NCBI GenBank assembly: GCA_016934295.1
Contig: JAFGTD010000036.1
Coordinates: forward strand, 1 to 53,774
DNA: 53,774 nt
Reading direction: 5' to 3'
Origin: Acidobacteriota bacterium
Lineage (GTDB): Bacteria; Acidobacteriota; UBA6911
A model generated the notes under the pieces. It saw only the letters and a list, made by a program, of their open reading frames with translations. It did not search any database and was not told the DNA's origin. Within the stretch, counting starts at the first letter, position 1, and every line of letters starts with the position of its first letter. Below, in pieces: positions 48,954 through 50,810 of the stretch. Both the position numbers and the translations under genes were made by a program.

Positions 48954-50726
48954 TTAATCGTACCCGGAGGCGTTCAGAGCGGCGGCATGCCTTTTCTGCC
49001 GCGCCTGCCGTCGTCGAGCCGTCTGTTCGTTCTCTTGAAAAATTCCACCCCTTGGCCGCCACTTGTCGACGGAAACCGTCTGGGTGTACCACATGTCTGT
49101 GGTAAACCAGAGCGCCTGGGTTTCTCCGCCAACCACAACCATGTTGATTTTCTCCGGATCGGTATAGGGCGCGATCATGGCATCTTCAGGCAGTTTAAGC
49201 CATGATGCGAACGGTTCGATTCCATTGCGCGCATTCGGTTCGACCAGCGAGTAGACTACATCGGATCCCCAGAACTGCCCGGCCGTCATTTTAAAGTTAT
49301 CCGACAGGTATCCGGCGAGATCTTCCGTGTTATTGAACCCCTGCTCTTTCAGATGTTTGGCCACAAGGGGATCCATGACCAGGGTTACGGCCTGTTGGAT
49401 ACAGGGAAAAGCCTGCATCATAATGAGCGTTTCTTCCTGTGCCGGACGGCGGCAGCCGGCCGCGCCCATGCTGTTGATGGCGCTCCAGCCCTGGAAAAAA
49501 CTGACGGTGCTTTCTTCCTTTTTAAAACCTTTGCGGACGTGGAACGGTTCCCACACGCTGCGCTCCTCATTTTCCGGGATCAGCATATTGTTGTAGTTCA
49601 CGTTGTTGCCCGTAGAGCCCATGAAGGTCTCTCCCAGGCGCGAATCCGCCAGGTTGATCGTCATCAGGGTCCATGCACGTCCGATGACGGTGTTGGCATG
49701 ATTGAACGGACTCAGGGCGCCAAGGCCGGTATTCATGCCGATCTCTTCGCGGATGGGACCGTTTACGACCGCCATTCTTCCGAATGATGTGGTAGAACTC
49801 GGCATGGAGGGTTCCTGGCTGGCCGCCAGAGCGAGGATGACCGGGAGATGTTCCGGTCCGGCCCCGGCCATAACGGCATTGACGGCTACTTTTTCCACCG
49901 TATATTCCAGTTTTTCCTGGTGGATCGTGATGGTCATCCGCCCGACGACTTCATTGGGATCGGCGGCGGTTCCGGTCAGCATGTTCGCCACGCGTTCTTC
50001 CGTCGGCAGAACGATCGGGGCCCCATCGGTCCAGCCGTTTTCCAGGAACAGCTTGTGAAGATTCTCCTCGGTGTCGGGTTGAAGAAGACGCGGTCTGGGA
50101 GCGCCGCGGGCGGCTTCGGGATTCTTTTCTTTTTCAGTCAGAGGCTGGGTAAGGGCGTCGATGACCTGTGGCATTAAGGGTTTGCCGGAGATCGGATCGT
50201 TGCCTTCCGCATACTGCCGCAGCACTTCGCGCGGTCTTCCAACAAGCGGATAGGGCGGGAAACTGAAGCGCAGGTTCATGCCGTGGTTCCGTGCGTCCAT
50301 TGCGGCGTATTCGGCAAAACGCGCGCTTGCCAGGGGCGCGGTGGGAATACCGCATTTTATTTCAATTTCTCTGCAGTGTGCGGCGACACTCGCCGTACAG
50401 CCGTCTCAACCGCCCACGCCGAAAATGACGGCGTCTCCGTTTTCCTTGATCTCATCCCACATTTCGGGCTCGTCGACGAACATGATGCCCTTTTTGTGCT
50501 GCAGCACCGTCTTGACATCAGGGTAATTGCGTGCGAACCAGGCGTTGGCCTCCTCCAGGAATTCCCATCCGCCGCCGAATCCTACGTCAATAATGTAGAG
50601 GGTTTTTCCCTGGATCGTATCGAGACGGGGTGCCAGGGGGTGAGGCTGGATCTCGGCCGTCGGCTGACCTCGGGGATCCAGAACGGTGCACAGGGAACGG
50701 GTTTGGCGAGGTGAACTTTTTACCAT
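48954..50726 (-). CDS. Predicted selenoprotein of the UGSC type with in-frame UGA (Sec107) and long C-terminal domain
   Basis: One reading frame of 590 residues is interrupted only by a TGA at 50408-50406 (codon 107). The sequence around it reads VIFGVGG-U-DGCTASVAAHC, then the frame continues to residue 590. The N-terminal ~150 residues (VLDPRGQ, LAPRLDTIQGKTLYIIDVG, KCGIPTAPLA) resemble the UGSC family, in which a Sec (or Cys) and a Cys form a U-x-x-C redox motif; here it is U-D-G-C rather than U-G-S-C. Residues ~190-575 form a second domain (NGWTDGAPIVLPTEERV, VEKVAVNAVMAGAGPEHLP) of unknown function. Start ATG 50726 has GGAGG (50738-50734) at 7-base spacing. If UGA is not decoded as Sec, this is a pseudogene split into a 106-residue part and a remainder. 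Confidence 0.82.
50377..50405 (-). promoter_or_regulatory. Putative bacterial SECIS hairpin after the in-frame UGA
   Basis: On the minus strand, directly after the UGA, the RNA can fold as CGGCGA-GUG-UCGCCG (50395-50381), or CGGCG closing an AGUGU loop. It is extended by UGU (50399-50397) with ACA (50379-50377) across one A-C mismatch. The loop begins 15-16 bases after the UGA and has G near its 5' side, as described for bacterial SECIS elements. SelB binding is inferred. Confidence 0.6.
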
Positions 50727-50810
50727 TGGAAACCTCCAACGAAAATGCGGGTTAAACGTCAAACAAGAATAGCACCTTTTGCCATTCTTTTACGACAGGG
50801 TTGAATAAAA

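Follow-up and report, generated by a model that had tools for sequence, protein, structure and literature searches.

The window, by which we mean the whole 53,774-nucleotide stretch of DNA analyzed here, carries a selenoprotein gene of the UGSC family, in which sequence comparison suggests that the in-frame UGA at codon 107 is almost certainly read as selenocysteine (Sec). The central claim of the earlier note, an unannotated selenoprotein of the UGSC kind, is strongly supported as real by the Cys residues of homologues, the Sec machinery of the genome, a downstream hairpin and the predicted fold. The family itself was already known, and the novelty lies in the size of its paralogue set in this genus and in a proposed functional link to GrdB/PrdB. 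Combining Sec decoding, a reductive-cleavage enzyme and the paralogue set gives a joint explanation that we consider reasonably probable as a whole, its Sec part being the firm one.

Translation confirmed the reading frame from the ATG at 50726 to 48954 on the reverse strand, which comprises 590 codons with TGA at codon 107 as the sole internal stop and TAA at the end. A table-11 caller reports two ORFs in its place, of 118 a.a. (TTG 50762 to 50406) and 448 a.a. (ATG 50300 to 48954), as the earlier note had foreseen. Over the 35 codons that follow the TGA, no ATG, GTG or TTG start occurs, again as claimed, and the coding character continues across it, with a GC3 of 0.68 on the 5' side and 0.66 on the 3' side; by base composition alone, the chance of 484 further open codons is ~6e-10. 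The motif first described as U-D-G-C is present and can be refined to FGVGG-U-DGC, a U-x-x-C motif of the UGSC kind. The Pfam UGSC model (PF24696) matched residues 14−174 of the read-through protein (E 4e-21, 76.3 bits; gathering cut-off 25), spanning the TGA as expected of one continuous domain, and the two halves scored separately gave 37 and 22 bits. The proposed resemblance to UGSC thus holds for the Pfam family but not for the NCBIfam equivalog NF041046, where the protein scored 49.1 bits against a curated cut-off of 125, so that we regard it as a divergent UGSC member. The features are listed in Table 1.

Table 1 Features of the selenoprotein gene and its surroundings (window coordinates).
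Feature	Position	Strand	Basis or remark
Selenoprotein gene, N-terminal UGSC and C-terminal Unknown_1-type domain	48954..50726	−	590 a.a. with UGA as Sec
In-frame UGA, codon 107, proposed selenocysteine	50406..50408	−	Translation; Cys in homologues
Cys110, +3 cysteine of the UxxC motif	50397..50399	−	Absent from Ser paralogues, themselves without Sec
RBS-like GGAGG, 6 nt 5' of the ATG	50733..50737	−	Direct reading of the sequence
UGSC domain (PF24696), interrupted by the UGA	50205..50687	−	Pfam match
Unknown_1-type C-terminal domain	49047..50114	−	In most sampled relatives with both, encoded next to UGSC as its own gene
Bacterial-SECIS-like hairpin CGGCGA-GUG-UCGCCG, starting 10 nt past the UGA	50381..50395	−	Folding and compensatory changes

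Short imperfect repeats with an AACGTT-rich unit occupy 50832−50888, in the intergenic DNA on the upstream side of the gene. Directly upstream on the same strand (51516−53648), two genes resemble, judging their translations by eye, an IS66-type transposase and a DNA adenine methylase. The genes around the window gene itself gave no clue to its substrate.

Homologues outside the genus have Cys at the UGA column, the check proposed in the earlier note: Haloterrigena turkmenica (GDCGSC), where a standalone UGSC gene adjoins Unknown_1, and Variovorax (GACGSC) and Neorhizobium galegae (GHCSTC), where the two domains are fused. In Paracoccus versutus, a stop codon occupies the same column of an otherwise continuous UGSC frame. 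The homologue in Neorhizobium galegae VafX2 (L147:6368-8036) is split in its annotation into two overlapping hypothetical proteins and appears to be one frameshifted gene. The second proposed check, a search for the Sec genes, found all four: selA, selB, the tRNA-Sec gene (selC; 72.5 bits) and two copies of selD (L016 and L017; G000:C267 and C23). Since each selD contains one TGA inside the matched frame, both SelD proteins are probably selenoproteins themselves.

A true stop at codon 107, in a pseudogene, through a sequencing error or between two separate genes, would fit the two ORFs of the table-11 caller, but we consider it extremely unlikely: the TGA is kept in every same-genus orthologue (74−91% identical) and in the same column of 20 genes of its own genome, the next 35 codons lack a start, homologues have Cys at that column, the Sec machinery is complete, and a single confidently predicted fold spans the junction. 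A genome-wide reassignment of UGA, for example to Trp or Gly, has nothing in its favor beyond the read-through itself and is vanishingly improbable, because TGA is an ordinary stop elsewhere, terminating 25 of 80 long ORFs around the paralogues, because the UGSC genes carry it at the motif column, and because tRNA-Sec, selA and selB are encoded in the genome. We therefore retain Sec insertion, in which UGA107 would be decoded by SelB and tRNA-Sec under the direction of the downstream hairpin.

For this hairpin, we compared the region with synonymous recodings across 61 sequences; it folded better than they did, with a mean z of −1.5, versus −0.3 in control windows, and the window gene alone showed a modest signal (P ~0.08). 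Compensatory paired changes were found in both groups tested, and in one sequence (L021), the G-C pair 18−24 became C-G through two synonymous changes, each at a third codon position. The bSECIS-like hairpin is thus supported across the group and weak for the single sequence, and its role as the SelB target is putative. Rfam searches around the window gene returned chance matches only, and the comparison with phages gave no match.

AlphaFold2 predicted the read-through protein, from the 61-sequence alignment, with a mean pLDDT of 91.2 and a pTM of 0.89. In the model, U107 lies between a strand (99−105) and a helix (108−125), and four β strands, alternating with helices, precede residue 150. 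A Foldseek search of the PDB with the whole protein found nothing at E≤0.001, and PDB sequence searches with the protein and with the 61-sequence profile found no significant relative; the weak PDB matches of the whole model were flavodoxin- or lumazine-synthase-like, not thioredoxin-like. Together with the order of strands and helices, these low-scoring matches hint at a flavodoxin-like α/β domain.

Residues past ~205 matched no Pfam or NCBIfam model. In the sampled phylum genomes where both domains were found, the C-terminal domain is mostly a separate gene adjoining a separate Sec-containing UGSC gene, whereas in the window gene the two are fused. A fusion of UGSC to a conserved domain named "Unknown_1" was reported in 2008 (PMC2398784, text on Fig. 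S1A), and the C-terminal domain here is likely the same one. Foldseek of this domain against the PDB gave nothing at E≤0.001; weak matches to class I fumarase and cyclic-amide hydrolase (TM ~0.2) were not trusted. Kinship of Unknown_1 with GrdE/PrdA was rejected, as the domain showed no similarity to GrdE.

The window gene belongs to a large set of paralogues. In the genome, 27 UGSC places exceeded the Pfam cut-off and one more fell below it; in 20 of the genes, the motif column holds TGA. The window protein has 10−28 matches in each of nine further genus genomes, all of them thus expanded, while the remaining genomes of a 396-genome phylum survey, in which up to eight candidates were scored per genome, have 0−2 UGSC places each. 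We considered whether the 20 copies might be an artefact of co-assembled strains, as the fragmentation of the assembly into 343 contigs would allow. This is very unlikely: the contamination estimate is 1.7%, the 25 paralogues compared share 20−73% pairwise identity (median 30%), the other genus genomes are expanded as well, and the tree contains orthologue groups common to several genomes. Twenty genes from one family are striking beside the largest selenoproteomes that a 2026 review names for bacteria, of 57 and 63 genes (PMC13188914). The literature searched contained no description of an expansion on this scale, although Haft 2023/2025 or the work on the Methylomirabilota MAG with 63 selenoproteins may mention it.

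The paralogue motifs keep the form UxxC and include UDGC, UPGC, USTC, UWGC, UHGC, USSC, UDSC, USLC, USQC, USVC, UGSC and one UUGC. The xx pair is largely specific to the orthologue group; on the tree, paralogue sets are often made up of members from several genus genomes, with a motif that is largely common to the set. Sec and the +3 Cys are coupled, both being present in 44 aligned rows and the Cys being absent from all five Ser rows. The paralogues with Ser for Sec (L099:5476-10738; L095; L100), which also lack the +3 Cys, imply at least four state changes on the tree, and three Ser paralogues lie in one cluster beside a molybdopterin dehydrogenase gene. Another paralogue (L101:5048-6664; G000:C289:14047-15663) has two adjacent in-frame TGA codons (GFGG-UU-GC), which are kept in an 88% identical orthologue (L187; G010:C14:1181-2797), possibly as a conserved Sec-Sec pair. 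Two genus genomes contain loci that exactly match records bearing the label Acidobacteria (isolates Zod_maxbin.0255 and Zod_Metabat.240); some near relatives are labelled Actinobacteria, which may reflect transfer or mislabelling.

No function of UGSC was found reported in the literature searched. In GrdB and PrdB, Sec is the nucleophile in the reductive cleavage of glycine and D-proline. When the UGSC Sec-domain profile was compared with the GrdB/PrdB-like proteins of the phylum, hhalign gave a probability of 95.6%, with U aligned on U, the +3 Cys on Cys and GIP on GIP, versus ≤1.8% for the controls (eight unrelated proteins and GrdE). The GrdB/PrdB model PF07355, which matches 94 of the 396 phylum genomes, had no match in the genome of the window gene even at E 10, and the pyruvoyl partner GrdE/PrdA (PF09338) was found in two genomes (G143 and G376) but in neither the genome of the window gene (G000) nor G009. 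With neither GrdB nor GrdE/PrdA among the results for this genome, a partner would need to use another chemistry.

Taking glycine and D-proline reductases as a model, we propose a mechanism for the UGSC/Unknown_1 proteins, to which we give even weight for and against. Sec would sit at the strand end and helix start of a predicted α/β domain with a Sec segment related to that of GrdB/PrdB, and substrate binding most likely falls to the fused Unknown_1 domain. The selenolate might attack an activated carbon in a small organic molecule, and the bond would then be cleaved reductively. Cys110 could resolve the selenium as Se-S, which a thiol or a ferredoxin-linked donor might re-reduce. Genes beside various paralogues encode a TRAP transporter, CoA-transferase III, AFOR and 2-oxoacid:ferredoxin oxidoreductase, and further neighbors are glycyl-radical, xanthine-dehydrogenase-type and tannase genes; these neighborhoods would fit organic-acid catabolism.

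The principal competitor is a general thiol-redox or peroxidase-like role, in which UxxC would act like the redox pair of thioredoxins, the assumption made in the 2008 literature. The motif and the coupling of its U and C speak for this role; the alternation of strands and helices, the flavodoxin- and lumazine-synthase-like character of the weak PDB matches, the differing xx pairs of the orthologue groups and the profile link to GrdB/PrdB speak against it, and ~20 copies per genome are better explained by substrate diversity than by a single redox role. We therefore consider it rather unlikely and prefer reductive cleavage, with the ~20 divergent Sec paralogues of the genus probably serving different substrates. 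More tentatively still, the genomes of this uncultured genus may each encode some twenty Sec-dependent enzymes for catabolism by reductive cleavage, arisen by duplication within one GrdB-related superfamily. In these enzymes, UGSC would carry the selenolate, and Unknown_1 would bind a diversity of substrates with no pyruvoyl partner involved. The link to GrdB/PrdB, the partnership with Unknown_1 as two genes or fused, and the ~20 Sec genes per genome together offer a testable enzyme hypothesis for UGSC, whose Sec genes standard annotation would break or miss.

Compared with known systems, the window protein shares with the GrdB/PrdB-like proteins (PF07355) the layout of the Sec segment, strand-U-x-x-C-helix-GIP, but differs in its second domain and in a genome where neither a PF07355 match nor the GrdE/PrdA partner was found. 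Its architecture, UGSC with an otherwise unknown conserved domain, is apparently that of the UGSC/Unknown_1 fusion (PMC2398784), where the text on the fusion describes neither the expansion nor the motif diversification. UGSC selenoproteins were reported by Zhang and Gladyshev as one of the most abundant selenoprotein families of aquatic metagenomes (PMC2398784). With this family (PF24696, NF041046), the window protein shares the N-terminal domain, Sec at the motif column, the +3 Cys and the strong predominance of Sec over Cys, whereas it has UDGC in place of UGSC, scores below the equivalog cut-off, is fused, and is one among ~20 Sec paralogues.
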